From Akkermansiaceae bacterium (GTDB lineage Bacteria > Verrucomicrobiota > Verrucomicrobiia > Verrucomicrobiales > Akkermansiaceae): DNA of 45,998 nt. The notes beneath the pieces were generated by a model that did not search any database, had not been told where the DNA came from, and saw nothing but the letters and a program-made list of their open reading frames with translations. The stretch spans positions 1 to 45,998 of the forward strand of contig CAIXKE010000072.1 in NCBI GenBank assembly GCA_903919975.1. The letters are read 5' to 3'. Positions 12,401-42,656 of this stretch are shown one piece after another. The first letter of the stretch is position 1; the number at the start of each line of letters is the position of its first letter. The translations under genes and the position numbers were made by a program.

Positions 12401-12982
12401 GGCCCTGGGAAGAGGTTTGTCGTCCACGCTGAAACGGACTCCCGCATCCACCGCGTTGCTCTCATCCCCGGCCGTAGTCGGAAACGCCACAACGGCTACG
12501 TCCTTATAATACCCCATACGGGCAAAGGGCTTGTTGAGCGCAATCTCCGACTTCCCAGGCCCCCGGACTATCGTCTGGCTCCAACTCAATTGCTGCATCG
12601 AGAGTTCCGGTGTCACCCACGGCCCACCGGCGGTCGACCAACCGGCGCAGTTTTCAGCGCTCAGTTTAAGTCCGAGCCGGTCTGCCTCCTGGGTCGCGTG
12701 CTTCAATAGGTCAAACCACTCGGGTCCGAATATTTTGACCGGGCCGGGGGTGGTCTGCTGGACATTGAAAATTACGGCACCAGCGAGCCCGTTCTGCTTC
12801 ATGGCCTCCAAATCCTTGGTGATTCCCTCGCGGGAGATATAACTGTCGGTCCAGTGCCACCACGTCCAGGGCTTGGTTTCCTGAGGCGGGTTTTCAAAAT
12901 TGGCCGCGAGCTCATCACCCCTGAGGATGTTGCCGCCCATCAATGCCAACTGGAGGCAGAGCATTATGTATGTTGGTTTCAT
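9485..12982 (-). CDS. GH106-type protein 1 (putative alpha-L-rhamnosidase)
   Basis: A 1165-residue secreted protein of the Glyco_hydro_106 type; characterised members remove alpha-L-rhamnose. After a signal peptide (MKPTYIMLCLQLALMGG) come hallmark blocks: PWTWWHWTDSYISREGI, ENCAGWSTAGGPWVTPE, SMQQLSWS, WTIMRIGSTTTGVLNAP, AAEEARGLE, HYFVDSYEGG, KRRGYDLRVWLPVMTGR, GLEGSAETGGGPFDF, GHLYGRKVIGAEAFTGG and FHRFAHQPW. The C-terminal 230 residues are beta-sandwich modules ending GLIGPVRIETLRVLE. Around residues 898-934 sits a linker made by two in-frame 37-bp direct repeats (QQVYPQPGGSS and QQVHPQPGGSS), at the place where the third paralogue carries a LamG-like domain. It starts 21 bp after the stop of GH106-type protein 2, so the two are likely co-transcribed. 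Confidence 0.88.
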   Translation of the reverse strand: MKPTYIMLCLQLALMGGNILRGDELAANFENPPQETKPWTWWHWTDSYISREGITKDLEAMKQNGLAGAVIFNVQQTTPGPVKIFGPEWFDLLKHATQEADRLGLKLSAENCAGWSTAGGPWVTPELSMQQLSWSQTIVRGPGKSEIALNKPFARMGYYKDVAVVAFPTTAGDESNAVDAGVRFSVDDKPLPRAANLTDGDHDTQVAFQGDLMIEFPEPFTAQSLMTANPKHQWGLAELHAETTPGKFVLAAKLDLGYTTPFAGALNSVSFAPVTAKRFKLVSKLRRGGPSVRIGELELGGYRITKWTAKAGFGNGGGTKFELPNTRYETPAGVAIDPSKIVDLTGKLSPEGKLRWEVPAGNWTIMRIGSTTTGVLNAPAAEEARGLEIDKMSREAADLHVNATMGKWAAHIGPELFDKTWTHYFVDSYEGGCQNWTPGMPKEFTKRRGYDLRVWLPVMTGRVVGSLEESERFLWDLRRTISDLFADNFYGRFSERAAEFGLEGSAETGGGPFDFVQAGGRMPYPMAEFWTHGKVVETKRNYSPVSAGHLYGRKVIGAEAFTGGHPWENTPASLKSLGDFMMTCGINRFVFHRFAHQPWVDDRLQPGMALGGVGMNFDRTNTWWDKSRAWMQYLSRCQHLLQSGLFVADIVYLTDEEPHRGSQPLLKAPQGMDFDISSSEAVLTRMQVRDGRIVLPDGMSYGYLVLQSGGRMTPELMAKVAELIKSGATVIGTAPGMSPSRQNLPACDQRIQAMVTELWGANPGPEGERRVGSGRLIWGKTLEQITKADGLSPDFSSDDVAALPLLHHLHRRIGDTDAYFVAWGGTDGRDLTCTFRVTGKVPEIWNPVSGAIETAGSWDVVDGKTRVNLRLPASGSVFVVFREPAKTAGPGLQTVRLDGQQVYPQPGGSSPMTLASTQHASIGQQVHPQPGGSSSEAASAQSAIELGAENGASVLLARSGGEYQIGNSRAAIRVAQPPAPVSLNGPCKVRFLSGRGAPEQATFERLISWADHSDPGIKYYSGTAAYDMTFEVSADRLQKQCRHFLDLGRVEVIAEVKLNGQDLGVLWTDPYRLDVTRLLKPGRNTLEVQVANLWVNRMVGDEQFPLDYECPRTIAKWPEWLTDPSKRPEPRRMSFSTFRPFTKDTPLVPSGLIGPVRIETLRVLE
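10181..10289. repeat. 37-bp direct repeat pair inside GH106-type gene 1
   Basis: Copies at 10181-10217 and 10253-10289 differ at two positions and begin GCTGGAACCGCCTGGCTG. The offset of 72 bp is a multiple of three, so the frame is kept and each copy encodes a Q-P-G-G-S-S-rich linker. The sequence between and after the copies does not repeat. Confidence 0.85.
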
Positions 12983-16406: not shown

Positions 16407-16673
16407 ATTGCTTTGGTGCGAAGGCCGTTGAGGGAACTACGCGTTGCTGTGCCCGCCCAAGAGGAGCCGTTGCCCGGGGCCGGGGGCTCGCCCCCCCCCG
16501 GAGAGTGGCTGAAGGATCGGCGGCATGAGTGTGCGGTTTTTGATGATTCATTCACTTAAAGAACTCGCTTACGGGTGCACGATGAATCAAGCCCGCTGAG
16601 CCGTCATGTCGGCAAAAGGGATGACAGCCCATTCCAGGCTTCAACGGCCTAGGTATTTGGCCACCGCCTCGCC
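16407..16673. repeat. Leader repeat, copy A (overlaps the 3' end of the regulator gene)
   Basis: This stretch between the GH106-type gene 2 start and the response-regulator 3' end is repeated at 32455-32700 (copy B), in part at 39767-39868 (copy D) and, for about 45 bp, at 19524-19570 (copy C). Shared landmarks are GAGAGTGGCTGAAGGATCGG, TGATGATT.ATTCACTTAAAG, GAATCAAGCCCGCTGAGC and AGGCTTCAAC. The last 33 bp of copy A are coding sequence of the regulator (EAVAKYLGR and stop). By eye A and B match at roughly 85 percent. Confidence 0.85.
16480..16501. promoter_or_regulatory. GC stem-loop inside leader repeat A
   Basis: CCGGGGG and CCCCCGG arms flank a short loop about 90 bp upstream of the GH106-type gene 2 start. 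An equivalent G-run/C-run stem with a different loop sits at the same place in leader repeat B (32504-32530). It could be an mRNA leader structure or a transcription-termination hairpin; no T-run follows on the minus strand. Confidence 0.4.
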
Positions 16674-20671: not shown

Positions 20672-22414
20672 CTAAGATCTAACAAAAGCTTTCAAGGTCG
20701 CACACTCCATGCCGAGAGACGGGCCGTGCGGGCGAATGGTGTATGCACCGACGGCGGCGGGAACGATGAAGGTTTCCGCGTAGTGGACGATGTAGGGATC
20801 GAAGGCTCCGGTGGGACTTTCGACAATGGCTTCCTCGCCCTCGACGAGGTTGAGCACATTCACACCGCCGCCGGTGTGGTGGGTGGCGGTGCCGGTGAAC
20901 CAATGACGGCGGGTTTCGATGAACTCGCGTTCGTGCAGGCCGGTGCGCTCTTCACGCCAGCCATCGCCGAAGCCAAGTGGTTCGACGGTATTGACGAGAT
21001 GTTTCATCGTCCAGTCGGTGGTGCGGTCCCACTGGACGTTGGCAAGGCCGTGGTCGAGGTGGATCGGGCGCGGCTTGCCATCCAGTCCGAGGCGGCCCCA
21101 GTCCCACATCTTGAAGGTGAAGATGTAGGGAGTGGCGCTGATTTCGAGGACCATCGATCCGGCTCCGGAACAATGCACGGTGCCGGCCGGAATGAGGAAA
21201 TGGTCGTGTTTCTTCGCCGGGATGCGGTTCGAGTAATCGTTGGCTGGAAATGATTTCTCGCCACGCTGGGCGGCTTCGAGTTCGCTGCGGAAAACTGCGG
21301 GATCGACTCCGTCCTTCAGCCCGAGATAGATGCAGGCATCCGGCACGGTATCGAGCATGTAATAACTCTCGTCTTGCGTGTAGTGCATGCCGAAATGTTG
21401 CTGGATGTATTCGGTGAGCGGATGCACCTGGAACGAGAGGTGGCCGCCGCCGATGGTGTCGAGTAAATCGAAACGGATCGGAAACTCGTCGCCAAATCGC
21501 CTGTATACGGAATCGCCTAACAACGCGCGCGGTTGGTCGAAGACGAGATTGATGGAAGGCATCTCGACGGTGATTCCGCCGATTTCCAGCAGCAGGCTGT
21601 TTTCCTCCGGGACGCAATCGAAACACCAGCCGTAGTTAGGTGCGGAGCGGTCAAGGGCGCAGGCTTCCTTCATCCACTGGCCGCCCCACGGCGCGGGGTC
21701 GAAGAAGGGCACGACTCGAAATGGGCGAGAAACCGCTTCGCGCAGTCCACTGCGGACGGATTCACCTGCAGCCAGCTTCGGTTCGGCGGGATTGTTGGTA
21801 TCCAGCAGAAACTCCCACTTCGCGATGAGCAGGCGTTTCCAGCGGTCTGCCACGCGCCAGTCGATGAAGAAGGCGCGCTTGTATTGGAGGCTGGCCTTGA
21901 GGTCGTGATTGTCCACGCCGAGGTTAGTGGCTTCGTTGCGGCGGAAACGGAGTTGTGCCTCCCAGCGCGCGAGGTCGGCGTAAACGAGCATTCCGTCCTC
22001 CGCGATCAGTGTGGCACCGCAGCCTACCACCATCACGAGGCCGCTTGCGGATGCGATGCATTGTTTCATAGCCTCGACCCGTGCAGGGTCGAAAAAAGCG
22101 GGCATCTGCAAGCCAGTTAGAAAGCCGAACACTGGATCGTCTCCGCCGAGGAAAGGGGCGACGAGCGCATCGATCTCCGCCGCCGGCAGCATGGCCTCGC
22201 GGGTGTGCAGGACCAAGGCCGGATCAAGGCGTGAGGTGAGTTCGCGCAACAAGGCGGACTCATCGACGCCGGGATAACATTCGACGGCAAGCAGAGGCTT
22301 GCCTGTTAGTTTACGGGAAAGGCGTGCTGCGATGTCGTCCCATCCGCTGACGCATTGATCGGCGGTGTTAGAGACGGTGACGGCGGGGTATTTTTCGTAG
22401 TTCGGTGTTCTCAA
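20672..22414 (-). CDS. Class I mannose-6-phosphate isomerase with N-terminal degenerate kinase-like domain
   Basis: About 580 residues, much longer than the roughly 390-residue classical ManA. The C-terminal half is a class I phosphomannose isomerase: SFQVHPLTEY (zinc-binding Gln and His), TQDESYYMLD (zinc Glu) and IPAGTVHCSGAGS (zinc His). The N-terminal 230 residues resemble a uridine-kinase-like P-loop fold whose nucleotide loop is degenerate (ECYPGVDESALLREL, without the Walker lysine), so this part is probably structural or regulatory. Start: the TTG at 22414 overlaps the ROK stop as TTGA and yields RTPNYEKYPAVTV, the usual beginning of this family; an ATG at 22450 would overlap the ROK gene by 40 bp. 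Known activity: mannose 6-phosphate to fructose 6-phosphate. The cPGI gene follows after 12 bp. Confidence 0.88.
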   Translation of the reverse strand: MRTPNYEKYPAVTVSNTADQCVSGWDDIAARLSRKLTGKPLLAVECYPGVDESALLRELTSRLDPALVLHTREAMLPAAEIDALVAPFLGGDDPVFGFLTGLQMPAFFDPARVEAMKQCIASASGLVMVVGCGATLIAEDGMLVYADLARWEAQLRFRRNEATNLGVDNHDLKASLQYKRAFFIDWRVADRWKRLLIAKWEFLLDTNNPAEPKLAAGESVRSGLREAVSRPFRVVPFFDPAPWGGQWMKEACALDRSAPNYGWCFDCVPEENSLLLEIGGITVEMPSINLVFDQPRALLGDSVYRRFGDEFPIRFDLLDTIGGGHLSFQVHPLTEYIQQHFGMHYTQDESYYMLDTVPDACIYLGLKDGVDPAVFRSELEAAQRGEKSFPANDYSNRIPAKKHDHFLIPAGTVHCSGAGSMVLEISATPYIFTFKMWDWGRLGLDGKPRPIHLDHGLANVQWDRTTDWTMKHLVNTVEPLGFGDGWREERTGLHEREFIETRRHWFTGTATHHTGGGVNVLNLVEGEEAIVESPTGAFDPYIVHYAETFIVPAAVGAYTIRPHGPSLGMECATLKAFVRS

Positions 22415-23388
22415 GTGGATTGGGGATGGAATTGTTCCTGGAGGAGCCATTCGGCGGCGACAAGCGCAGCTTGATCACCGAGTTCGGAGGCGCTGACGGT
22501 GACGCGCCCCCACGGCGTGTTGGCGTGGCTGGCAATGTGATTCTCAATGAAGGGCACGATCACGTCGGCGCTGCCCATGATGCCGCCGCCGAGAACGAGG
22601 ATTTCCGGGTCATAGGCGTGGATGAGATTTACGGCGAGCGTGGCCCAGATGCGGAGGCTGTGATCGCGGAGGGCAAGCGCGCATGCATCACCGCTGGCGG
22701 CGTGTTTGAAGACCGACGCGAAGTCGAGCAAGGACTCGGCGGCGAGCGCGCTTTTCTGATAGTCAGGACGCGAGTGAGCCATCGCGTTCAGAAATGCGGT
22801 GGATGCCTCGGCTTCGGCACAGCCGGTATTGCCGCATCCGCAGGCACGGCCGTTGAAGCGGAGCGATGAATGCCCGCCGAGTATTGCTGCCTGGCCGTGC
22901 TTACCGCGAATCACCTGGCCCTGCATGATGGCGGCGGTGCCGATGCCGGTGCCGAGCGTGATCATCACCACATCGTCCGCTCCCTGACCCGCGCCGTATT
23001 TCCACTCGCCAATGAGCGCCATGCGCGCGTCGTTTTCAATGGCGAGCGGAAGACCGAACTCGCACCTGGCCCAGTCACGGAGATCAAGATCCATGGCATC
23101 GGAATATTTTCCATACTCAGCAAGCACGCGGCCCGTAGCGACATCGATCAGGCTGGGAAAGGCGATGGAAACTCCAGTGCAGTCGGCTGATTCCAGTTGG
23201 AGGGATTCCAGCAGGTTCCTCCATGCAGCGGCGAGCCGTGGCAAAGCATTTGCGATGCCATTCTCCGAGTGTGCGGGGATGGTAGTCTGCGCGAGGAGAT
23301 GGCCAGCGCACACCACGCCAATCTTGATGCGTGTACCGCCGAGGTCGCACGCGAGAGACGGGGGAGGCACGCGAAGATCGACGCTCAC
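22411..23388 (-). CDS. ROK-family sugar kinase
   Basis: Phosphorylates a free hexose; in this operon glucose or mannose are the likely substrates. About 325 residues. The N-terminal CDLGGTRIKIGVV is the ATP-binding phosphate loop, TLGTGIGTAAI is the second, and ACGCGNTGCAEAEAS is the ROK zinc-binding cysteine cluster. A DNA-binding domain is absent, so it is an enzyme rather than a repressor. The start is taken as GTG at 23388, which overlaps the transporter stop as GTGA, a usual sign of translational coupling; the open frame continues to 23589 only as a shadow inside the transporter gene. The 3' end overlaps the mannose-6-phosphate isomerase start. Glucokinase versus mannokinase cannot be decided from sequence. 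Confidence 0.9.
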   Translation of the reverse strand: MSVDLRVPPPSLACDLGGTRIKIGVVCAGHLLAQTTIPAHSENGIANALPRLAAAWRNLLESLQLESADCTGVSIAFPSLIDVATGRVLAEYGKYSDAMDLDLRDWARCEFGLPLAIENDARMALIGEWKYGAGQGADDVVMITLGTGIGTAAIMQGQVIRGKHGQAAILGGHSSLRFNGRACGCGNTGCAEAEASTAFLNAMAHSRPDYQKSALAAESLLDFASVFKHAASGDACALALRDHSLRIWATLAVNLIHAYDPEILVLGGGIMGSADVIVPFIENHIASHANTPWGRVTVSASELGDQAALVAAEWLLQEQFHPQST

Positions 23389-25583: not shown

Positions 25584-25664
25584 AAGAGAATCAGTCAATC
25601 ATGATCGTATCGGGAGTTCACCGAGCCGGCGCTGTCCGGGTTGACTTGCCCGCACACTTATCGA

Positions 25665-26218
25665 ATATGAGGCGTCGATAAAGATCTTCGCCCGGAACAC
25701 CGAGCCGTCGTCCATCTCGATTTGGGCGATCTTCCCTCCCTCCATGGTTGTCCGGGCAAGGCGTTGCTCTAAATAGACCGATACCCCCGCTTCCCGGACG
25801 AGATCATCAAACACCTCTTCCGCGACATGCGGTTCGAACGTCCATTGAATGGATTTTCTTCCGTACTTAGCCCCGATGCGCTTGTAGAATTCACGGGAGA
25901 TCCCTTGGATGTATTCGGTTCCAACCGTACCAATATCCGTTTCGCCGAGCCCTGATGAGCTGAGTCCGCCAAGATGATCGTTAAAAACCAACAGCGCGAC
26001 CCGCTTACCCTGGCGAGCAGCCTGGACGGCCGCAATTACTCCTCCTGAAGCGCCGCCGTAGACGCAAACTTCGGTTTCATTTTTTGCTTCTCTGGAAGAA
26101 CCGGCAGCTGCCGGGAGCTGGGCTTTTCCGGCAGAGCTTTCTGCGCTTGGAGCGAACCGTTGATTAAAAGCGCCAGTGCGGCGACGATGCTGCCCGGGAT
26201 CGGGAAGAACTGTCTCAT
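25665..26218 (-). pseudogene. FAD-dependent oxidoreductase relic (frameshifted and truncated)
   Basis: The ATG at 26218 starts a signal peptide (MRQFFPIPGSIVAALALLIN, ending SLQAQ). After PEKQK the frame breaks at a run of six A/T bases (26081-26086); one added base would restore reading into NETEVCVYGGASGGVIAAVQ, an FAD-binding dinucleotide fold, followed by ALLVFNDHLGGLSSSGLGE, SREFYKRIGAKYG and FEPHVAEEVFDDLVREAGV. Homology stops at about 25665 (FIDASY, which usually continues EGDLM), so the catalytic remainder is lost. This is the FAD_oxidored family often found in PVC sugar loci. It lies between the GH2 gene and the hexose operon. Confidence 0.75.
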
Positions 26219-32454: not shown

Positions 32455-32700
32455 GAAATTGCTTTTGAGGTGAAGGCTGTTGAAAGAGCCGGAGGCCGGA
32501 CCGGGGGGGGCTGGCCGTGACCGCCCCCCCAGAGAGTGGCTGAAGGATCGGCAACATGAGGCTGCTGTTTTTGATGATTTATTCACTTAAAGAACACGCT
32601 TGCGGTAGCACGATGAATGAAGCCCGCTGAGCGGTCATGTCGGTAAAAGGGATGACAACCCATTCCAGGCTTCAAAGGCTCGGGTAACTTCGCACCCAAG
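32455..32700. repeat. Leader repeat, copy B with regulator-gene vestige
   Basis: Matches copy A (16407-16673) over most of its length: GAGAGTGGCTGAAGGATCGG, ATTCACTTAAAGAAC, GAAGCCCGCTGAGC and GATGACAACCCATTCCAGGC. In copy A the right end is the 3' end of the response-regulator gene; here the corresponding bases (about 32668-32695) are degenerate and no regulator gene follows. It lies directly upstream of the oxidoreductase gene. Confidence 0.85.
32504..32530. promoter_or_regulatory. GC stem-loop inside leader repeat B
   Basis: Seven G (32504-32510) pair with seven C (32524-32530) across a 13-base loop, matching in position the stem of copy A although the loops differ. Preservation of pairing with a changed loop hints at a structural role in the leader. 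Confidence 0.4.
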
Positions 32701-32835
32701 CCGTCGCCATTGAAACAAGGCAACAGCCACACAGGGGTTAACAAATGCCTGGTTTTTTCCATCCCATGAAAGGCTCGATCGATCATTGTTGTGGAATTAA
32801 TTTCCGACTGGGGCACTGGTGCTTTCGCTATAAAT

Positions 32836-34404
32836 TTTTGACTGTTTCTATTTGGTGGGAATGGATCTCTTACAAAACCTTCTCTAGGGTTTCATTTCAC
32901 CTGCGGGGCGGCCTGTGATTGCGCTTCTGGCTTAGCAGGCACCACATCGGGCACAGGCTCCTCAATCAGCTGAACCTGAAGCCGCCCCACGGCTCGGAAT
33001 CCCTTAAAATAATTGGTCGCGGTTGAGCCCGTGAAAAACACGGTGTAGGTGCCATCCCCCTCATCGATCAGCTGGTGCGGCGTGCGCACCGCCCATGCCC
33101 CTTTCCACCACCCCACCTCGCCGGGCGCCAAGCCTTCATCGATATTCACGATCTGGCCCTGGGTCATCGGCCAGTTCAAGCCATCCACGGACCAGGAAAA
33201 CCCAATCGTGTTGTAGGGAATGTCCCGCAGGAAATCGAAGGTCGAAACCCAGTAATCCCGCCCCGTGAGCGGCCCTTTTAACTTGATTACCGTGGGATTC
33301 TCAATGAAGCCGGTCGGATCGATCATGGTCGCCGGCGAATGCTCCGCATCGAAGGTGTACGGCCCCTGCGCCGTTGGAGCGGTCGCGATCAGTACCCACC
33401 AGGAACCGAACTTTTCATGATACGGCTTGCCATTTCCGCCCATCATTACCGCCCAGCGGCCATCCTTGACCTGAAAAGGCGACGTAATGGATTGAGCAAC
33501 GGACTCCTTCGGGTAGCTTGTTCCAGGAAACATGAACTGCTTGCCAGGGAAGTCCCATGGCCCCCGGATACCCGAGATCCCCTCGACCTTCGACTGCGCA
33601 CACCAGAGGGTGGACCCCGCCTGCCAATTGACGCCCTCGCATTCGAACTGGTTGTAGTAGAGGCTCCACCGCTTGGTGGTTTCATCGTAGAACGGCTGCG
33701 CCGGCCCGCTCTGAATGTACTTCTTCATCTTGTCGTTGAACACCATCTCGGTCAACGCCCCCACCCGTGTCCAGGCAAAGCCATCTTTTGAAACCAGCTG
33801 ATCGGTCCCCAGATGTCCCCACCCTAGCCCCGGCATACGCCACGCGAAGAAGTGATATTCGGGTTTCCCGTCGATCATTACTTTCACGGTGTTGCCGCAT
33901 TCGTAGCCGCCTTTAATCCCCTCGACGCCCGGGGTCCTTTCGTCGATCACCGTCTGGGGGTATGTCTTGAGCACTTTCAGGCGTAATCGCATCGGCTTCG
34001 CTATTTCGGGAGATTTCAACTCATCCGCTCCCACCCCCATCCCGCTGAGGAGTGAAGCCAAGCCTACAATCAGCAGACCCGTTTTTTTATGTTTTGTTCT
34101 GGCGTTAAAGGATGATGTTTGGAGGGGGCTCATATTTGAGATGTGTGTCATATTGGGTGCCTTGTAGTTATTTTTCGAATACGGGAGTCCAATAACGTGT
34201 GCAACGGATCGCAAAGTAGCGGTCCAGAAGATTCCTACAACTGCTAGGGAGCAGAAATTGACCGGACATGTTTTGACTGTGTCTATTTGGTGGGAATGGA
34301 TCTCTTACAAAACCTTCTCCAGGGTTTCATTTCACCTGCGGGGCGGCCTGTGATTGCGCTTCTGGCTTAGCAGGCACCACATCGGGCACAGGCTCCTCAA
34401 TCAG
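32836..34404. repeat. 134-bp near-identical repeat at the 3' ends of both propeller genes
   Basis: Bases 32836-32969 and 34271-34404 differ at only two positions (offset 1435 bp). They cover the downstream flank (TTTGGTGGGAATGGATCTCT), the stop codon and the last 26 codons (EEPVPDVVPAKPEAQ region). The remaining coding sequence of the two genes is clearly more divergent. Coordinates span the pair. Confidence 0.9.
32892..34151 (-). CDS. Secreted beta-propeller-like protein 1, family not identified
   Basis: About 419 residues with a signal peptide (KKTGLLIVGLASLLSGMGVG). Repeating beta-rich blocks suggest a five-bladed propeller of the GH43/GH32/GH117 kind: YECGNTVKVMIDGKPEYHFF, GTDQLVSKDGFAWTRVG, GPAQPFYDETTKRWSLYYNQ, GSWWVLIATAPTAQGPYTF, ATMIDPTGFIENPTVIKLKG, FSWSVDGLNWPM and DEGDGTYTVFFTG. 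The acidic residues in YDETTKR and FIENPT are candidates for catalysis, but no family was recognised with confidence. The start at 34151 (MTHISNM) is chosen because the tandem paralogue begins the same way. The C-terminal EEPVPDVVPAKPEAQ tail is a proline/alanine-rich extension shared exactly with the paralogue. Confidence 0.8.
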   Translation of the reverse strand: MTHISNMSPLQTSSFNARTKHKKTGLLIVGLASLLSGMGVGADELKSPEIAKPMRLRLKVLKTYPQTVIDERTPGVEGIKGGYECGNTVKVMIDGKPEYHFFAWRMPGLGWGHLGTDQLVSKDGFAWTRVGALTEMVFNDKMKKYIQSGPAQPFYDETTKRWSLYYNQFECEGVNWQAGSTLWCAQSKVEGISGIRGPWDFPGKQFMFPGTSYPKESVAQSITSPFQVKDGRWAVMMGGNGKPYHEKFGSWWVLIATAPTAQGPYTFDAEHSPATMIDPTGFIENPTVIKLKGPLTGRDYWVSTFDFLRDIPYNTIGFSWSVDGLNWPMTQGQIVNIDEGLAPGEVGWWKGAWAVRTPHQLIDEGDGTYTVFFTGSTATNYFKGFRAVGRLQVQLIEEPVPDVVPAKPEAQSQAAPQVK

Positions 34405-35595
34405 TTGGACCTGAAGCCGCCCAGCATTGCGAAATCCCGTAAAGTAGTTTAACTGGGTTGATCCGGTGAAAAATACGGTATAGGTGCCGTCCCCTTCGTC
34501 GATGAGCTGATGGGGCGTGCGTATCGACCAGGTTCCAATCGTACCCTTCCACCAGCCCGTTTCGCCCGGAGCAAGCCCCTCGTCAATGACAACGATCTGC
34601 CCATTGGCCATGGGCCAATTCAATCCATCCTCGGACCAAGAAAAACCGATTGCGTTGTTCGGCTGGGGGTGCAGATGATCAAAGGTCGAGACCCAGTACT
34701 CCCGGCCAGTCAGGGGCCCCCGCACTTTGGTGACCGTTGGATTCTCGATGCCGCCGGTCGGATCAATCATCGTTGCCGGAGAATGCTTCTCATCAAAGGT
34801 GTAAGGACCCTGCGGCGTAGGTGCCGTCGAGACCATCACCCACCAGGAGCCGTATTTCGGTTGATAAGGTGGTCCGTTCCCTCCCACTAACACCGCCCAC
34901 TTCCCATCCTTGGTCTGAAAAGGACTCGAGATCGATTGTACAATCGATTCCTTGGGGTAACTCGTGCCGGGAAAGAGAATCTGCTTGCCCGGGAATTCCC
35001 AGGGCCCGCGGATACCCTTGATCCCCTCCACCTTGGAGCTTGCGCACCACAGCGTCGATCCCGACTGCCAGTTCACTGTCGTGCATTCGAACTGGTTATA
35101 GTAAAGTTGCCACCTCTTGGTCTGCTCATCATAAAACGGCTGCGCCGGCCCGCTCTGGATGTATTTCTTTTTCTCCTCGTTAAAGGTCATCTCGGTCAGC
35201 GCACCGACCCGCCGCCAGGAAAAGCCGTCTTCGGAAGCGAGTTGATCCGTCCCCAAATATCCCCACCCGAGCTCCGGCATACGCCAGGCAAAAAAGTGAT
35301 ACTCCGGCTGGCCGTCGATCATCACTTTCACGGTATTGCCACATTCATAGCCGCCCTTGACCCCCTCGACGCCCGGCGTTTTCTCAGTGATTACCGGCTG
35401 GGAATACGTCTTGAGCACTTTCATGCGTAATCGCATCGGCTTCGCTGTGTCGGAGGATTTCACCCCTTCCGCTCCAGCCTCGATCGTGCTCAGCAGTAGG
35501 GCAACGCCTGCAATCAGCAGATACGTTTTTTTAAGTTTTGTTTTGACGATAGAGGGTGAGATTTGATGGGTGTTCATATTTGAGATGTGGGTCAT
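34327..35595 (-). CDS. Secreted beta-propeller-like protein 2, tandem paralogue
   Basis: 422 residues, the upstream member of a tandem pair. Same layout as its neighbour: MTHISNM start, signal peptide (KKTYLLIAGVALLLSTIEAG), YECGNTVKVMIDGQPEYHFF, GTDQLASEDGFSWRRVG, GPAQPFYDEQTKRWQLYYNQ, ATMIDPTGGIENPTVTKVRG, FSWSEDGLNWPM and the identical C-terminal tail. A small insertion, TIG before TWSIRTPHQL, distinguishes it. Upstream sequence around the start (TTGGGTGACTTGTG and on) also resembles that of propeller 1, so the duplication unit included the leader. Function is unknown; the context suggests a glycoside hydrolase or sugar-binding protein acting with the neighbouring GH106-type protein. Confidence 0.8.
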   Translation of the reverse strand: MTHISNMNTHQISPSIVKTKLKKTYLLIAGVALLLSTIEAGAEGVKSSDTAKPMRLRMKVLKTYSQPVITEKTPGVEGVKGGYECGNTVKVMIDGQPEYHFFAWRMPELGWGYLGTDQLASEDGFSWRRVGALTEMTFNEEKKKYIQSGPAQPFYDEQTKRWQLYYNQFECTTVNWQSGSTLWCASSKVEGIKGIRGPWEFPGKQILFPGTSYPKESIVQSISSPFQTKDGKWAVLVGGNGPPYQPKYGSWWVMVSTAPTPQGPYTFDEKHSPATMIDPTGGIENPTVTKVRGPLTGREYWVSTFDHLHPQPNNAIGFSWSEDGLNWPMANGQIVVIDEGLAPGETGWWKGTIGTWSIRTPHQLIDEGDGTYTVFFTGSTQLNYFTGFRNAGRLQVQLIEEPVPDVVPAKPEAQSQAAPQVK

Positions 35596-35715
35596 ATTGG
35601 GTGACTTGTGATTACTTTTCGAAACGGGAGTCGCATAATGTCTTCGGCACTTTTGAGTTTAATCGCATAATCTGTTTTTTATTTGGGTTCTTGGACCAGT
35701 AATCGCTCCGACGCC

Positions 35716-38700
35716 TCAGGGAAGCTTCTGATAACGCACGGTTTTGAGCATCACCGGCCCAATCAGTCCCGAGTCAAACAGCGGGGAATCCTTGCCGTAG
35801 GGCTTGATCGGGGCAAAAGTGACGCGCCGGGGCTCCGGCCGTTTACTAGGATCGTTCAACCATTCCGGCCATTTCACCAGACTCGCCCCGTTATATTGCG
35901 CATCGGCAGGATACTGTTCATCGCCGATCAGGCGGTTAACCCACAAATTGGTGACGCGAACTTCCAAGTCATTGGCTCCAGGTTTGAGAAAGCTGCTGAC
36001 CTCGACTCGGAACGGGGTCTTCCACAACACTCCCAGATCCTTGCCGTTGACAAGCACTTGGGCCATCACCTCCACCGTGCCGAGATCAAGCTGGAGACGG
36101 GTCTGAGGATCGGCCAGCTGTTCCGGCGTGATTTTGAAGCGGGTCTTGTAACTCGCCGTGCCGGAAAAATATTTGATGCCGGCCTCGGCATGCTCCGTCC
36201 ATGAAATCAGCCGGTCGAAAGTTGCCGTCGCCGGAGCTCCCCAACCCGAGGGAAAGCTGAGTTGCCAAGGACCGGTCACCGTTATGGCCTCGGCCATCGG
36301 CTTGACCGTGAGGGGGCTTTCGTTCTGCCCCTGACGGATCTGGTAATCGCCGGCAACGGCGAAAACTCCGGATGTTACCCCTTTGCTATCAGTGATCAAC
36401 TCGACCGGCGGCAGCTTTTCCAGGGGCGATTGAAAAGGGATTGCTGCAAGTTGGGCGACCTCCTCGGGTGCCAACCCACGATCAACCTGAGTAATGGCGC
36501 TCATCTTACCGGTGAACCCTGGCTGGCCAGGTTTATTGAGCGTTCCGGCATTGGCATGCAAGGTCATGGTGCTGGCCAAGCCGGTTGCAACGTGTTTGCC
36601 GTCGATATAGAGCATTGGACGGTTGCCAACGACCACCACTGCAAGGTGGCTCCAGGGGCGGATTGTCCCCGCATAAACGAGCAGAGCCGGAACATGACTG
36701 GCTGCATGCTCAAATACCGCGACGCCGTTTTGGCCCACGGAAATTCCCAGCCCAGCATGCCCGCGGCCCCACACCTCATGGCCGGGGGCCGGATAGACTG
36801 CAAAATCCTGACCTCCCCAAGAAACCCCTTCTTGGCTTTGCGCCGGAAGCGCGATTTTCCCCAAAGGCCTGACGCGGAAACCAACGGCGAAATCTTTCTG
36901 CGCCTGGGCAAGAGAACCCGGCACTAGTCGCACGACTTCATGTTCAACCGGCCAGGGATATACCTGGCGACCCGCGCTGGTAATGACGGGAATTGCCTCC
37001 ACCGGCTTGTTTGTGGGTTTACGGAAAACCACAAAGACAGAAGCTCCGGGCGTCAGGCGCAGCGGCAGGGATGTGACGCCGTCACGCTCCTCCCAGACCG
37101 GCGCATCGCCAATGAGGGCGGTGTCGGGATGCCATAGCTCGGGGATTTTGCCGGCGGTACGAAAGCGGCAGGTGATATCCCGGGTTTCATTGCCGGCCCA
37201 GGCGACAAAATAGATGTCAGCTTCCGCACTGCGGCGATGAATGGCATGTAAGAGCGGCAGAGCCTTGGCATCATCACAAGTAAAATCCGGCGCGAGGCGA
37301 TCCGCGCTGAGAATCTCCTCAAAGCGTTTTCCCCAGATCAGACGGCCCTGGCCGATATGCCGTTCGCCGACTGCGGGGCAATCCGCCCCCCAAAGGCCGG
37401 CGCTCAAAGTTGAGAGTGCGGCATCGCAGCCCGGAAACCCCGAGAGGCTCGGCGACAACTTCGGCTGTGATCCGATCACCGTGGCCCCGGCCTTAATCAG
37501 TTCCTCGCTCTTTTTCAACAGTTCCGGGGTCATCCGGGCGTTATTGGGCAGTACCAGGTAACGATAGCTCATGCCGTCGGGAAGAACGATGCGGCCATTC
37601 TCGACTCGCATCCGATTCAGCACCACCTCGGCGGAGGCGACGTCGAAATCGTAACCGGCGGGAAGCTTGGGGGATCCGCCACTGGAAAAGCGCTCACCTT
37701 CTGGCATGAGGTAGACCGCGTCGGCCGCATATAAGCCGTGCTGTAAAAGAGACTGGCAACGGGTCAAATATTCAATCCAGGCGTGAGCGGGATCCCACCA
37801 GGTATTGGTGCGGTCAAAATGCAGGCCGTTGCCGCCAAGGGTCATCCCGGGCTTGATCCGTTCATCGGTCCAGGGCTGGTGGGCAAAACGGTGGAAGATG
37901 AATCGGTTGACGCCGCTGGCATAGATGTAATCGCCCAAGGCTTTCAGTGAACCGGGATATTGCTGCCAGAGCTGGCTGCCACTGGTGAATGCTTCGGCAC
38001 CGATGATTTTACGGCCATAGAGATGTCCAGCAGACGCTGGAGCAAAGACCCGCTTTTCACTTTCGACACTTTGCTCGCACCAGAACTCGGTCGTCGGCAA
38101 CGAGCCGCGTCCACTGCATCGGACGAAATCAAAGGGGCCGCCATAAGCTTCCGAGGAGCCCTCAATACCGAACTCGCGGGCACGCTCATCAAATCGGCCG
38201 TAGAAATTATCCGCATAGCAATCGCCGATGGTCTGGCGCAGATCGTGAAGAAAACGCAGGCTTTCTTCAGTCGAATTGAGGATCCGCCCGGTCATGGCGG
38301 GCAACCAGGAGCGCAAGTCGTAGCCGCGGCGTTTGAGAAATTCCTGAGGCAAAACCGGCGACCAGTTCTGATACCCCGCCTCGTAGCTATCAATGAAGTA
38401 ATGGGTAAAGACGCGCTTGAACAATTCCGAGCCGACATTTTCGACGAAGCGCCCCAAGGTGTTGTCGACATGCAAGTCAGCGGCGGCGCGGCTGCATTTG
38501 TCCAGCTCAAGGCCGCGGGCTTCTTCGGCGGCGGGGGCATTCTTGACTCCGGTGGTGGTGGAACCGATTCGCATGATGGTCCAGCGGCCAGGCGGCGCCT
38601 CCCAGTTCAGGCGTCCATCGCCATCGAGTTGCGAGCTGAGGTCAAGGATGCTGTCGCGGGCGATTACCGCGCCGGCCGAGGCTGGTTCCGTCGTGTTCGA

Positions 38701-39663
38701 CATTGGATGTGCCCCTTCGGTGAAACCGGCTTTCGCCGGCCACTGATTGAGGCGATTTCCGCCAAGCAGCTCCACTTCCCCAATCGGCCCGGATTTGCCG
38801 CCACGGACGCTAATCCTGAAAGATTTTGCCGTTACCGAAGCGAAACTGACACTACCGAGGCATCCGGCAAACGGCGTATGCGGCACCATTTTGAGCGTTG
38901 CCACTGGCTTGAAAATACCGTCGGCAGCAGCGGCCGAGAGTTCCACCTCATTGAGTCCCAGACGCGGGATGGCCAAATTCAGAGAGCGGGCGGCAAACGG
39001 TTGAGGAAATTCAATCAACAAGTCGCCGTCGAGTTGGATGGCGCTGTCATGATCACCATCGGTCAGCTTGGCGATTCCCGGCACGTCCTTGCCTCCCATG
39101 GTGATGCGCGGTTGAGCATCACGCATCCGGACGCCCTCGTCGTCAGGGGTCGGAAAGGCCAGAACGGCAATATCCTGGTAATAACCGCCGCGGGCGAACG
39201 GCTTGGGCAGGAGGAGGTTGACTTTGGCCGAACCGCTCGCCTCGGTTTCGCTCCAGCTGAGTTGCTGCATCGACTTTTCAGGTGTGATCCAAGGGCCGCC
39301 GGCAGTCTGCCAGCCGGCGCAGTTCTGGATACTTAGCTTGATACCGATGCGGTCCGCTTCCTGGGCCGCATACTTAAGCAAGGCCTGCCACTCCGGGCTG
39401 AAGATCTTGATGGGACCGGCCGTGACCGTGTTGACGTTGAAAATCACCGCGCCGCCCAGGCCTTGTTTTTTCATCGCCTCAAGATCGCGGCTAATACCGG
39501 CCCGGGTAATGTTGCCGCTCATCCAATGCCACCAAGTCCACGGTTTGGCCGGCTCTGGCGGGGTCTTGAACTGCGCCACGAGGTCGTCAGCCTTACAGGT
39601 GCCCTGGCCGAGATTCCCCCAAATAAGGCAAATCATTGTCCAACAGATTGTTTTGTTCTTCAA
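35716..39663 (-). CDS. GH106-type protein 3 with LamG-like insertion (putative alpha-L-rhamnosidase)
   Basis: 1315 residues, secreted. It is closely related to GH106-type protein 1: PWTWWHWMSGNITRAG, QNCAGWQTAGGPWITPEKSM, WTIMRIGSTTTGVKNAP, HYFIDSYEAG, KRRGYDLRSWLPAMTGR, GIEGSSEAYGGPFDFV, GHLYGRKIIGAEAFTSG, FHRFAHQPW, then the C-terminal VEVMAQVLVNGKDLGVLW and GLIGPVMLKTVRY. Residues of about 907-1080 form an additional concanavalin/LamG-like lectin domain (FAVGFRVRPLGKIALPAQ, WSHLAVVVVGNRPMLYIDGK) absent from proteins 1 and 2. No ATG precedes the conserved start: TTG at 39663 (MKNKTICWTMICLIWGN) gives a good signal peptide; ATG at 39636 would shorten it. The lectin insert probably anchors the enzyme to polymer. 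Leader repeat D lies upstream. Confidence 0.88.
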   Translation of the reverse strand: MKNKTICWTMICLIWGNLGQGTCKADDLVAQFKTPPEPAKPWTWWHWMSGNITRAGISRDLEAMKKQGLGGAVIFNVNTVTAGPIKIFSPEWQALLKYAAQEADRIGIKLSIQNCAGWQTAGGPWITPEKSMQQLSWSETEASGSAKVNLLLPKPFARGGYYQDIAVLAFPTPDDEGVRMRDAQPRITMGGKDVPGIAKLTDGDHDSAIQLDGDLLIEFPQPFAARSLNLAIPRLGLNEVELSAAAADGIFKPVATLKMVPHTPFAGCLGSVSFASVTAKSFRISVRGGKSGPIGEVELLGGNRLNQWPAKAGFTEGAHPMSNTTEPASAGAVIARDSILDLSSQLDGDGRLNWEAPPGRWTIMRIGSTTTGVKNAPAAEEARGLELDKCSRAAADLHVDNTLGRFVENVGSELFKRVFTHYFIDSYEAGYQNWSPVLPQEFLKRRGYDLRSWLPAMTGRILNSTEESLRFLHDLRQTIGDCYADNFYGRFDERAREFGIEGSSEAYGGPFDFVRCSGRGSLPTTEFWCEQSVESEKRVFAPASAGHLYGRKIIGAEAFTSGSQLWQQYPGSLKALGDYIYASGVNRFIFHRFAHQPWTDERIKPGMTLGGNGLHFDRTNTWWDPAHAWIEYLTRCQSLLQHGLYAADAVYLMPEGERFSSGGSPKLPAGYDFDVASAEVVLNRMRVENGRIVLPDGMSYRYLVLPNNARMTPELLKKSEELIKAGATVIGSQPKLSPSLSGFPGCDAALSTLSAGLWGADCPAVGERHIGQGRLIWGKRFEEILSADRLAPDFTCDDAKALPLLHAIHRRSAEADIYFVAWAGNETRDITCRFRTAGKIPELWHPDTALIGDAPVWEERDGVTSLPLRLTPGASVFVVFRKPTNKPVEAIPVITSAGRQVYPWPVEHEVVRLVPGSLAQAQKDFAVGFRVRPLGKIALPAQSQEGVSWGGQDFAVYPAPGHEVWGRGHAGLGISVGQNGVAVFEHAASHVPALLVYAGTIRPWSHLAVVVVGNRPMLYIDGKHVATGLASTMTLHANAGTLNKPGQPGFTGKMSAITQVDRGLAPEEVAQLAAIPFQSPLEKLPPVELITDSKGVTSGVFAVAGDYQIRQGQNESPLTVKPMAEAITVTGPWQLSFPSGWGAPATATFDRLISWTEHAEAGIKYFSGTASYKTRFKITPEQLADPQTRLQLDLGTVEVMAQVLVNGKDLGVLWKTPFRVEVSSFLKPGANDLEVRVTNLWVNRLIGDEQYPADAQYNGASLVKWPEWLNDPSKRPEPRRVTFAPIKPYGKDSPLFDSGLIGPVMLKTVRYQKLP

Positions 39664-40020
39664 AATATGGATAAGTTGTTAGAAAATGGTTCCTTTTGCC
39701 AGAGCGCGGGCACCGGTCCGTCCGGCAGACGCAACGGAATCTCTGTATCATTACGATTACCAATGGTGCACGGTGAATCAAGCCCACTGAGCGGTCATGT
39801 CGGCCAAAGAGATGACAACCCCTTGCAGGCTTCAACAGCCCGGGTATTTGGACACCGCCTGTCACTCGGGGAACTCGGACGGTGTCTTGCTGGATTCATG
39901 TCAAGAAAGATTGGTTAGGGATACCGCCCATCCGCATGCATTGGTGCACCTCCTTTTTCCCCTTCCCAGACCGGCTCTTCAGCGTATTCTCCATCCTAGA
40001 TGAAAAAGCAAATTCCCAGC
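39664..40020. other. 357-bp intergenic region holding leader repeat D
   Basis: Between GH106-type gene 3 and the DUF1080 relic. Its centre is leader repeat D; no credible gene was found. The minus-strand frame at 39593-39865 reads through the repeat and is rejected. Confidence 0.6.
39767..39868. repeat. Leader repeat, copy D with regulator-gene vestige
   Basis: Matches 16576-16673 of copy A: GAATCAAGCCCACTGAGCGG, TCATGTCGG, GATGACAACCCC and CTTCAACAGCCCGGGTATTTGG. Read on the minus strand the right end encodes AVSKYPGC and stop, compared with AVAKYLGR and stop at the end of the response regulator, so it is the decayed tail of a homologous regulator gene. Confidence 0.8.
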
Positions 40021-40212
40021 ATTAGTGAGTGCCCCATCTTCAACCGTCCACCATCCCGGCGAGCCATCCCAACCGGTAAGATCCTTGCCGTTGAACAATG
40101 AAACCGGCGGGTCTTCATCCCCGGCCATGCAGGCAGTCGCGGAAATCATCACTAGGGTCGCGAAGCGCAATGCGACGGATCGACATGTGGAGAGATTCAA
40201 TAACGACTTCAT
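40021..40212 (-). pseudogene. DUF1080 (3-keto-disaccharide hydrolase type) relic
   Basis: The ATG at 40212 opens a signal peptide (MKSLLNLSTCRSVALRFATL, ending ACMA) followed by VSLFNGKDLTGWDGSPGWW and TVEDGALTN, the characteristic start of DUF1080/PF06439 domains. Homology then ends and the frame stops at 39979 after a few unrelated residues, so about 170 residues of the domain are missing. The break coincides with a 21-bp sequence (40005-40025) found again at 40413-40433. Confidence 0.75.
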
Positions 40213-40676: not shown

Positions 40677-42656
40677 TCACGGCCCGGTGTGTTGAGATGG
40701 CGTTTCACGTGCAAGGGGCAAGGCAACTGCGGCGGCCTGGTTCCGCAGCAAATGCAGAAGGCCGATCTGGACAAAAGAGGTGGATTCGGGATAAGCATCC
40801 CAATTGAGAATATCCTCGATGCCATCGCTGTCGGCATCAATGATGCGATTGTTCACCGCACCCAGTTCGTTCAGCAAGCGGGCGCGCAACGAATTATCGC
40901 CGCAGTAATAACCGAGAATCGCGTTGGCGCGGTCGAGATAGCGCTTCTCGCCGCTGACCTTGTGCAGCACGGCCAGCGCGTGCAGCCAGTGCCCGCCAAT
41001 GTAGAGCGGGACGTGCGGCTTTTCTCCCTTGCCAAGAATAAAGGTCATGCGATCTCCTTCTTTCATATGGCCGAACATTGGTGTCGGAGCAGGACGCTCA
41101 GGAAGAGGTTTCAGCACAAGCCAGGCGTCCGCAGCTTTCATCGCTGCGGCTTTCCATGCGGAGGCGTTATCACTATCCGCCAACACGCGCGCACCTTCGG
41201 CGAGGGCGGCGATGTTCATCGCCGTCGCATTGGCGTAGCGCGTCCACTGGCCATCGGGACCTACGGATTCGGTGAGCGCGTTGAGCGCATCGATAGTGAT
41301 TTGACGAAGCGGACGTGGAGACTGGTCATTCGTCAGTTGGACCGGAAAATCGGGTCTCACTTCGCAGGCGGAGAGCATTCCCAGCAGGAGATAGGCATGC
41401 TCGCCTGCGGTGCGGTTCCAAATGGGCAGGCCGGATTTGGTGCGGTATGTGTAGCCGCGTTGCAAGCCATCGCTCAGACAGAAGCGCAATGCTAGCTTGA
41501 GCGAATCTCCTAACTGAACAGCCAGCGGCCCTTGCGGATTAGCTTTCAACGACTCGCCCAGCGCCCAGACTCCCCGCCCATTAAAGACACCACCCCAGGC
41601 AAAATCCCGGAAATCCGGGTTGATAAACCAGCCTTTGCCTTCCGTGAGCCACTCGCCCGTCTCGAACATGCCGTAGTGAAAAGCACCCGCCGTGTAGAGC
41701 TCCTGTTTCCCGGAAGCTTCTTGCCGGGCAAAGTTGTCGCTGCCGCGGTGCTGCATCGCCAGCAGGTTCGTCATCACTTCGTCTGCCAGTGCTCGGCGGT
41801 TGTCCGCCACCGCCGGTTTCACCTGCTGAAGCATCCGGTATAAGATCAAGATGTCCGCAGGGTCATTGGTGAAGGTATAAGGCCGGTAGTTTTCGGGCTT
41901 TTTGTTCGTGCCGTCTCCATCCCACGGGTGATTGTTCGAAGCATTGAACCAAGTGTTCCAAACCGCCTGCCAGAATCCCCGCGCGGGGCGATTTCCAAGT
42001 GGCGTGGACCAGTCGCGGTCACGGTGGTCGAAATCATAGAGCGTGGCATGGTCCTTGAACCACGCGAAATCCCCGGAATGGCCGAGATCGAACCCCGGCT
42101 TGTGGATGCGCATGAGCTTCGCTCCCCGGCTGTGCATGAAAAGATTCACCAGCGTCCTTTGCCTCGACCATTGCATCGCCTGCTGGTCCTTGCGGCCATC
42201 CACATCCAGGAAGTCATCTGTAAAGACCAACGGCAGATCCGGCAGACCTTCCTTGCCACCGCTCACGATCAGCGTGATTTCGGCCTGGTGCCCGAAGTGG
42301 TCGGCACTTCCGAAGGCTAAAAGGTCCGTGGCATCCACATAAAGCACGCTAGGCCTCAGCGGAGGTGCTCCGTTAAAAGCCTGCGGATAGCGACACTCGA
42401 AACGCCCCCCTTCTACCTTTACCTCAGTCATGTGAGTCTCCCCGAATGATGTCGTCACTCGCACACGCACCGACGTCGAACTGTCAGACACCGCCGAACC
42501 GACGATCTTTACGCCATCTTCGGAGAGCCGCTTAATGGGCGACGGGCTTAAACTCGCAACCAGATCGACTGCGGGCGTGGCTGGAACCGCCGCACTGAGC
42601 TCACTCCCAATAGAAGCAAGCAGAATGACGCTGAGAAGGGTGAAAGGATTAATCAT
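40677..42656 (-). CDS. Large secreted protein of unrecognised family
   Basis: 659 residues with a signal peptide (MINPFTLLSVILLASIGSEL, ending SAAVPA). Residues up to about 135 look like an immunoglobulin-like or bacterial surface domain (VKIVGSAVSDSSTSVRVRVT). The remainder is helix-rich with paired motifs (FWQAVWNTWFNAS, GGVFNGRGVWALGESLKAN, WNRTAGEHAYLLLGMLSACE, WTRYANATAMNIAALAEGAR, LYIGGHWLHALAVLHKVSGE, LDRANAILGYYCGD) of the kind seen in alpha/alpha-toroid enzymes such as six-hairpin glycosidases, lyases or epimerases. No catalytic signature was identified and no family is claimed. It follows the isomerase-fold gene by 320 bp and precedes the GH106/propeller group, so a role in the same saccharide pathway is likely. 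Confidence 0.8.
   Translation of the reverse strand: MINPFTLLSVILLASIGSELSAAVPATPAVDLVASLSPSPIKRLSEDGVKIVGSAVSDSSTSVRVRVTTSFGETHMTEVKVEGGRFECRYPQAFNGAPPLRPSVLYVDATDLLAFGSADHFGHQAEITLIVSGGKEGLPDLPLVFTDDFLDVDGRKDQQAMQWSRQRTLVNLFMHSRGAKLMRIHKPGFDLGHSGDFAWFKDHATLYDFDHRDRDWSTPLGNRPARGFWQAVWNTWFNASNNHPWDGDGTNKKPENYRPYTFTNDPADILILYRMLQQVKPAVADNRRALADEVMTNLLAMQHRGSDNFARQEASGKQELYTAGAFHYGMFETGEWLTEGKGWFINPDFRDFAWGGVFNGRGVWALGESLKANPQGPLAVQLGDSLKLALRFCLSDGLQRGYTYRTKSGLPIWNRTAGEHAYLLLGMLSACEVRPDFPVQLTNDQSPRPLRQITIDALNALTESVGPDGQWTRYANATAMNIAALAEGARVLADSDNASAWKAAAMKAADAWLVLKPLPERPAPTPMFGHMKEGDRMTFILGKGEKPHVPLYIGGHWLHALAVLHKVSGEKRYLDRANAILGYYCGDNSLRARLLNELGAVNNRIIDADSDGIEDILNWDAYPESTSFVQIGLLHLLRNQAAAVALPLARETPSQHTGP

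Follow-up and report, generated by a model that had tools for sequence, protein, structure and literature searches.

The 45,998-nucleotide (nt) contig CAIXKE010000072.1 of an Akkermansiaceae draft genome (GCA_903919975.1), analyzed whole and called the window here, is a glycan locus with three GH106 genes and genes for a GH2-like protein, a sulfatase, an aldose epimerase, a sugar kinase, and a transporter. We focus on two of its genes, A and B, paralogues that follow a GH106 alpha-L-rhamnosidase gene in the order of transcription GH106, B, A, all on the minus strand (Table 1). Their proteins are 78% identical and both begin with a signal-like leader, as judged by eye; from these N termini, both are probably secreted. 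For gene A, a TTG at 34214 is an alternative upstream start that would give a protein of 440 amino acids (aa). Neither protein matches any family in Pfam or NCBIfam, in agreement with an earlier reading of the DNA (the original prediction) that had placed the pair in an unidentified family.

Divergence along the gene pair

The DNA alignment of A and B has 1353 ungapped columns, the last 134 of which form a 3' patch. Within the patch, 2/134 columns differ, exactly as the original prediction had located and counted, versus 289/1219 (23.7%) in the remaining columns (Fisher P = 1.8e-12). Both differences fall in the 3' flank, the 25 codons being identical between the genes, and beyond the patches the flanks of the two copies differ. 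The longest identical run is 84 nt, versus a maximum of 77 over 20000 column shuffles. Synonymous divergence (dS) rises from 0.05 in the tail through 0.30 in the leader to 1.16 and 1.80 in the body, measured as two halves, so the uniform divergence that had been named as contradicting a homogenized patch was not found. Counted by sites, about 147/231 synonymous sites differ in codons 51-396, versus about 9/37 in codons 1-50 (P = 9e-6) and 1/19 in codons 397-422 (P = 5e-7), where the single change lies at the codon preceding the patch. At the start of the genes, 53/59 positions are identical within one 60-column step. Identity that is clustered, includes silent and noncoding sites, and occurs between paralogues with a diverged body is the pattern by which gene conversion is recognized, and A and B show it.

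Selection on a shared peptide or RNA element might also keep the tails identical, and the patch is unusually conserved. However, its silent sites and its 56-nt flank are conserved alike, and such selection predicts the tail in diverged homologues, whereas the aligned relatives lack it and the patch DNA occurs in 0/98 other genomes searched. No Rfam family matches at the gathering score in the window, and the patch folds no better than shuffled sequences (z 0.33 and -0.09). We regard this explanation as highly improbable. On the same RNA results, we rejected the patch as a known RNA family or stable fold, and we rejected it as a dispersed mobile element because there are exactly two copies in its own genome and none in the 98 others. 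The one terminator-like site in 32500-36000 (fewer than in shuffles) is at 32595-32612, outside the patch.

The pieces of the pair can be distinguished by means of a relative in another species, the closest of six loci returned by a pattern scan of the species genome collection (L045, the same record as L067, and called L067 below). Its gene is single in its genome (one match) and is 81% identical in the best segment, and its protein ends in 'EEPVAHE', without the tail extension of A and B. In codons 51-230 there is no clear pairing among A, B, and this relative (C), with site patterns of AB 60, BC 48, and AC 47 and a dS of 1.57 between B and the relative and 1.16 between A and B. In codons 231-396 the patterns (AB 25, BC 79, AC 27; chi-square P = 2.8e-6) favor B with L067. 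A breakpoint scan against L067 places a break near B residue 240, with 0/5000 permutations as strong. The signal joining B to L067 lies in residues 236-355. The protein tree also joins B with L067, with moderate support (81/77).

Based on this pairing and the protein tree, the split between A and B probably predates the split from the L067 relative, and the near-identical tail was probably copied later. Judged from these comparisons, the pair is a recombination mosaic, comprising an older duplication and later copying of the 3' end. The proposal of an older duplication with later local homogenization therefore agrees with the clustered identity, the dS pattern, and the L067 comparison, and its conversion step agrees with the copied tail, but the history goes beyond one conversion, as part of B groups with the gene of another species. 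The outgroups found, from which a direction of conversion would be read, all lack the tail. If the pair instead arose by a recent tandem duplication, without conversion, and the body then diverged quickly through adaptation, leaders and tails would be alike, as in a young duplicate. Yet most differences in the body are synonymous (dS 0.94 to saturation; nonsynonymous divergence, dN, 0.08-0.20), which adaptation does not explain, and part of B is nearer to the gene of another species than to A. We therefore consider recent duplication very improbable. The pair is a clear, small case of partial homogenization in a glycan locus.

Fold and candidate active site

An AlphaFold model of B from a 19-sequence input (predicted local distance difference test [pLDDT] 84.4, predicted template modeling score [pTM] 0.81) has five blades, whose first strands span residues 82-93, 144-156, 218-222, 282-292, and 355-359; an 8-sequence input gave 81.8 and 0.80. 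The strand order in both models fits five blades, and this order, together with the structural matches, bears out the propeller that had been predicted. Among the 50 matches listed by VIA-align, Z ranges from 22.1 to 25.3. BT_0996 has the top score (25.3; root mean square deviation [rmsd] 3.2 A, 297 residues aligned), with others tied within 1; GH62 scores 24.5 (3.2, 285), and GH159 (24.2; rmsd 3.3, 275 aligned) and GH130 (5b0p; 23.5; 3.1, 277) are near ties. The BT_0996 chains, 5mt2 and 5mui, are presumably its GH137 beta-L-arabinofuranosidase domain; identity is 12-13%, and BT_0996 is absent from the 24 PDB sequences that match the family profile at an expectation value (E) up to 1. GH137 activity of BT0996 has been described (PMC9843283). 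Foldseek ranked GH117 first (E = 2.7e-10, template modeling score 0.45 and 0.50), in a loose superposition (rmsd 12.1). The modeled protein is a five-bladed propeller of the GH43/GH32/GH130/GH117/GH137 kind, and on this model A and B are probably sugar-cutting proteins.

Sequence searches give partial matches to the same families. Gene B alone retrieved four chance-level matches among PDB sequences and no sequence relatives, and a 20-member profile matched GH43_24, GH130, GH117, and GH32 chains over one or two blades (best 2.1e-6). When 19 members were scanned singly, in a mode that prints neither cut-offs nor scores, 6 matched GH43 (best 3e-7), 1 GH32N, 1 BNR_2, and 7 the GH130 (beta-1,2-mannobiose) phosphorylase model (best 2e-9); two other glycosidase models were each matched by a single member. 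The profile search against GH families that had been suggested thus yields weak GH43 matches for some members and no Pfam match for A and B. The L071 member, which is fused to a GDSL-type esterase, scores 24.4 bits against GH43, below the curated Pfam cut-off of 32.2 bits; A and B, with no match, do not qualify for GH43 by that cut-off.

Residue conservation was counted over the 19 members, with the numbering of B. Just two acids are invariant (19/19 each), E84 in blade I and E284, the E of ENP, in blade IV, so that the central acidic triad of the original prediction is reduced to a pair. Of the acidic blocks that it had named as conserved, the E of ENPT holds throughout, whereas YDE varies (D156 is D in 10/19 and N in 9/19; E157 is E in 10/19). 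The usual GH43 base sits in blade I, and profile alignments pair E84 with the H of 'AHGG' and the E of 'EDPR'. In Pc1,3Gal43A (GH43_24), the acid Glu208 opens blade IV, blade III holds the pKa modulator Asp158, and Gln263 in blade V stands in for the usual base Asp, which is missing (PMC7939473). E284 fits the putative acid by its blade position, equivalent to that of Glu208. Given the invariance of both glutamates and the blade position of E284, we propose a two-glutamate mechanism. A family with these two as its sole invariant acids would be a direct test of active-site drift in the propeller fold.

The GH43_24 exo-beta-1,3-galactanases (Pc1,3Gal43A, BT0265, and BT3683) resemble the family in their five-bladed propeller, the blade I motif 'x(H or E)GG', and the Glu that opens blade IV, and the family profile matches BT0265 (6euf; E = 2.1e-6) from blade I into the beginning of blade II. 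They differ in that there is no full-length match and in that blade I has Glu in the A/B family versus His in GH43_24. A separate profile comparison with a GH43_24-like neighbor covered no more than blade I and the first part of blade II (probability 24%); it has no bearing on ENP versus EAP and was set aside. GH117 also matches the family profile (Zg3597, 4u6b; E = 7.3e-6), but family blades IV-V align to an earlier part of the GH117 chain, a blade shift, and the Asp following 'TP' in that chain corresponds to L (12) or H (7) in the A/B family. A literature search retrieved no paper recognized as describing this family. The nearest precedent is Lac161_ORF10, a beta-galactosidase from a Verrucomicrobia cosmid (deposited sequence AGW45555), likened here by description only: it is a verrucomicrobial five-bladed propeller hydrolase recognized by function alone but, unlike A and B, has a mass of 63.7 kDa, a KDP motif, and an assignment to Pfam DUF377 (PMC5342196).

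The GH130 mannoside phosphorylases share the propeller fold and weak profile matches, and A and B could be GH130-like glycoside phosphorylases, or noncatalytic sugar-binding propellers, rather than hydrolases. The phosphorylase model is matched by 7 of the singly scanned members, and GH130 chains are among the structure matches. However, the catalytic Asp of GH130 lies within the EDP motif, and the profile alignment pairs it with position 85, within a possible one-residue shift of register; among the 19 members, 15 have G at this position, 3 have C, and 1 has A. In addition, a signal-like leader, as A and B have, is unusual for phosphorylases. We consider this alternative unlikely, though it deserves more weight than the other alternatives discussed here.

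Proposed function and history

Our best reading is that A and B represent an uncatalogued family of predicted secreted glycosidases. The full explanation that we favor, and hold to be rather probable as a whole, is that they are paralogous exported glycoside hydrolases within the five-bladed-propeller superfamily (GH43/62, GH32/68, GH117, GH130, GH137) that would work together with the GH106 rhamnosidase next to them and with further enzymes of the locus on a rhamnose-containing, perhaps sulfated, glycan. Verrucomicrobiota have been described as feeding on sulfated polysaccharides that contain fucose and rhamnose (PMC8857213). In the putative chemistry, E284, at the start of blade IV, would give a proton and E84, in blade I, would activate water or attack, releasing a terminal sugar. 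The history read from the sequences would begin with an older tandem duplication, continue with recombination through which part of the C-terminal half of B came to share ancestry with an L067-like homologue, and end with a later gene conversion that copied the 3' end and flank between A and B. The 5' leaders may have been homogenized at an earlier time. Propeller glycosidases of this kind, which lack library entries, escape annotation, yet here they adjoin enzymes for rhamnose-containing glycans.

Several observations weigh against this explanation. Glycosidase activity is a prediction for every member of the family. No acid is conserved across the 19 members in blade III (residues 221-226), whereas GH43 has an Asp there (Asp158 in Pc1,3Gal43A), and E84 lies at, or one residue before, the usual place of the blade I Asp, a one-residue uncertainty of register. 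The Foldseek superpositions are loose, with rmsd of 5-15 A among the 50 matches listed. Regarding the history, synonymous divergence in the body is near saturation, and it is relative, not absolute, values that count. In residues 356-396, A, B, and L067 are equally distant (dS 1.2-1.3), B being no nearer to L067 than to A. In leader codons 1-50, replacement changes are as many as silent ones, which argues against recent copying there; with dN equal to dS, as under little constraint, the leaders would have been made alike, or duplicated, long before the tails. Finally, a single draft assembly (112 contigs) underlies the conversion, and an A/B pair was found in no second genome.

These last two points would also favor an assembly artifact, in which short reads of the two genes were misjoined and one tail was used for both. 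Against this, the patches differ at two sites, the flanks beyond them differ, the genome holds exactly two patch copies, and the mosaic relative to L067 inside the body points to recombination anyway; an artifact thus seems improbable to us. A bolder version of the favored explanation, which we offer as speculative and doubtful, is that A and B belong to a new GH family with a two-glutamate site in blades I and IV and that its paralogues evolve by exchanging cassettes, the ends being kept alike by conversion while a specificity-bearing middle is swapped with diverged homologues. Repeated conversion of the ends would keep tandem copies able to recombine, and the swapping of the middle is suggested by the part of the C-terminal half of B that resembles L067.

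Table 1. Features of the A/B locus, in window coordinates
Feature	Position	Strand	Description
GH106 alpha-L-rhamnosidase gene	35716..39663	-	Directly upstream of B, same direction; PF17132 E = 1.4e-199
Gene B	34327..35595	-	Paralogue of A, 422 aa; five-bladed propeller in model
Gene A	32892..34151	-	Five-bladed propeller protein (by family alignments), 419 aa, signal-like leader; ATG start corresponding to B start
3' patch, gene A copy	32836..32969	-	25 codons + stop + 56 nt of 3' flank; 2/134 differences to B copy
3' patch, gene B copy	34271..34404	-	Counterpart of A copy at 32836-32969
5' leader and start context of A	34002..34190	-	Less diverged from B at silent sites than the body; dS 0.30, dN 0.29 over codons 1-50
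Part of B nearer to L045/L067 than to A	34408..34905	-	Residues 231-396; dS 0.81 versus 1.80
E84 codon of B	35344..35346	-	Candidate general base; strand 82-93 of model; A equivalent 33900-33902
E284 codon of B	34744..34746	-	Candidate general acid; strand 282-292 of model; A equivalent 33300-33302
79-nt direct repeat	32608..32686	-	Downstream border of GH106-B-A cassette, upstream of Gfo/Idh gene; 86% to 39768-39846
79-nt direct repeat	39768..39846	-	Cassette border upstream of GH106

Relatives, neighborhoods, and the surrounding cassette

Members of the family are rare. Matches at E up to 1e-3 occur in 8/99 near relatives, counting the genome itself and partial matches, and in 36/288 genomes across the phylum, 4 of them strong (own genome included); across the class, 9/384 genomes match at E up to 1e-20, again including its own. 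Outside the phylum, the only match in 72,556 plasmid records is from Rufibacter. Some copies are divided over two frames or are missing a large internal section (L077/L078, at G535:C40:40514-41384, and L049), which suggests that the gene is also being lost.

The neighborhoods of 19 loci (the window, L046, L047, L048, L058-L067, and L069-L073, without L068) were inspected, with neighbors only partly scanned. A glycoside hydrolase gene adjoins the member or lies within three genes of it in 11/19, which favors the glycosidase reading. The predicted link to GH106 holds for the window and L067, but other members stand beside different genes: GH59 in L047 and L066, a GH78-type rhamnosidase in L048 (and farther off in L047), GH32 in L063, GH2 with GH43 in L065, GH2 in L062, GH39 in L070, GH127 in L069, and annotated GH28 and fucosidase genes in L058. 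No glycoside hydrolase was seen in the other 8/19 (L046, L059, L060, L061, L064, L071, L072, and L073), among which the genes adjoining the member in L059, L060, L061, and L071 and the nearest gene in L064 were unscanned.

In L067, the propeller gene immediately precedes a GH106 gene; over its first 591 nt, the part compared, this GH106 gene is 84% identical to that of the window, and two GH59 genes and a sulfatase gene lie farther off. The order is swapped between the two loci, the propeller genes following GH106 in the window. The distant member in L058 is carried by a Rufibacter tibetensis plasmid, typed as mobilizable, between the alpha-L-fucosidase and GH28 genes, with genes for L-rhamnose mutarotase, GH88, L-fucose isomerase, and GH127 nearby.

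As a further indication of local reshuffling, the GH106-B-A cassette is bordered by two copies of a 79-nt direct repeat. A third copy (16569-16648, minus strand) reaches into the end of an intact response-regulator gene and is followed by a GH106 gene, and a fourth, on another contig of the same genome (C3:257-338), precedes another GH106 gene. Just before the fourth copy, C3:141-270 still resembles the end of a response regulator (score 109, 0/300 shuffles as good), a decayed gene end, whereas the two cassette copies show no resemblance of this kind (equaled in 32 and 140 of 300 shuffles). These four well-conserved copies in the genome each lie just upstream of a gene of these loci, a GH106 gene in 3/4 cases; the strong GH106 genes at C47 and window position 12982 have no repeat copy. 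From this distribution, the repeat may be a spread upstream region, and it offers homology by which the cassette may have been moved.

Further genes in the window encode a Gfo/Idh protein, a ThuA-type protein, an isomerase-like protein, and two-component, GntR, and AraC regulators. Two long minus-strand frames, 40677-42656 and 20672-22450 (659 and 592 aa), have no Pfam match. A 77-codon frame at 39979-40212 (minus strand), with a signal-like start, contains 'LFNGKDLTGW'; it may represent the truncated first part of a DUF1080 gene. A 130-aa frame at 25599-25991 (minus strand) matches only positions 31-146 of 416 of the FAD_oxidored family and is probably a gene remnant.

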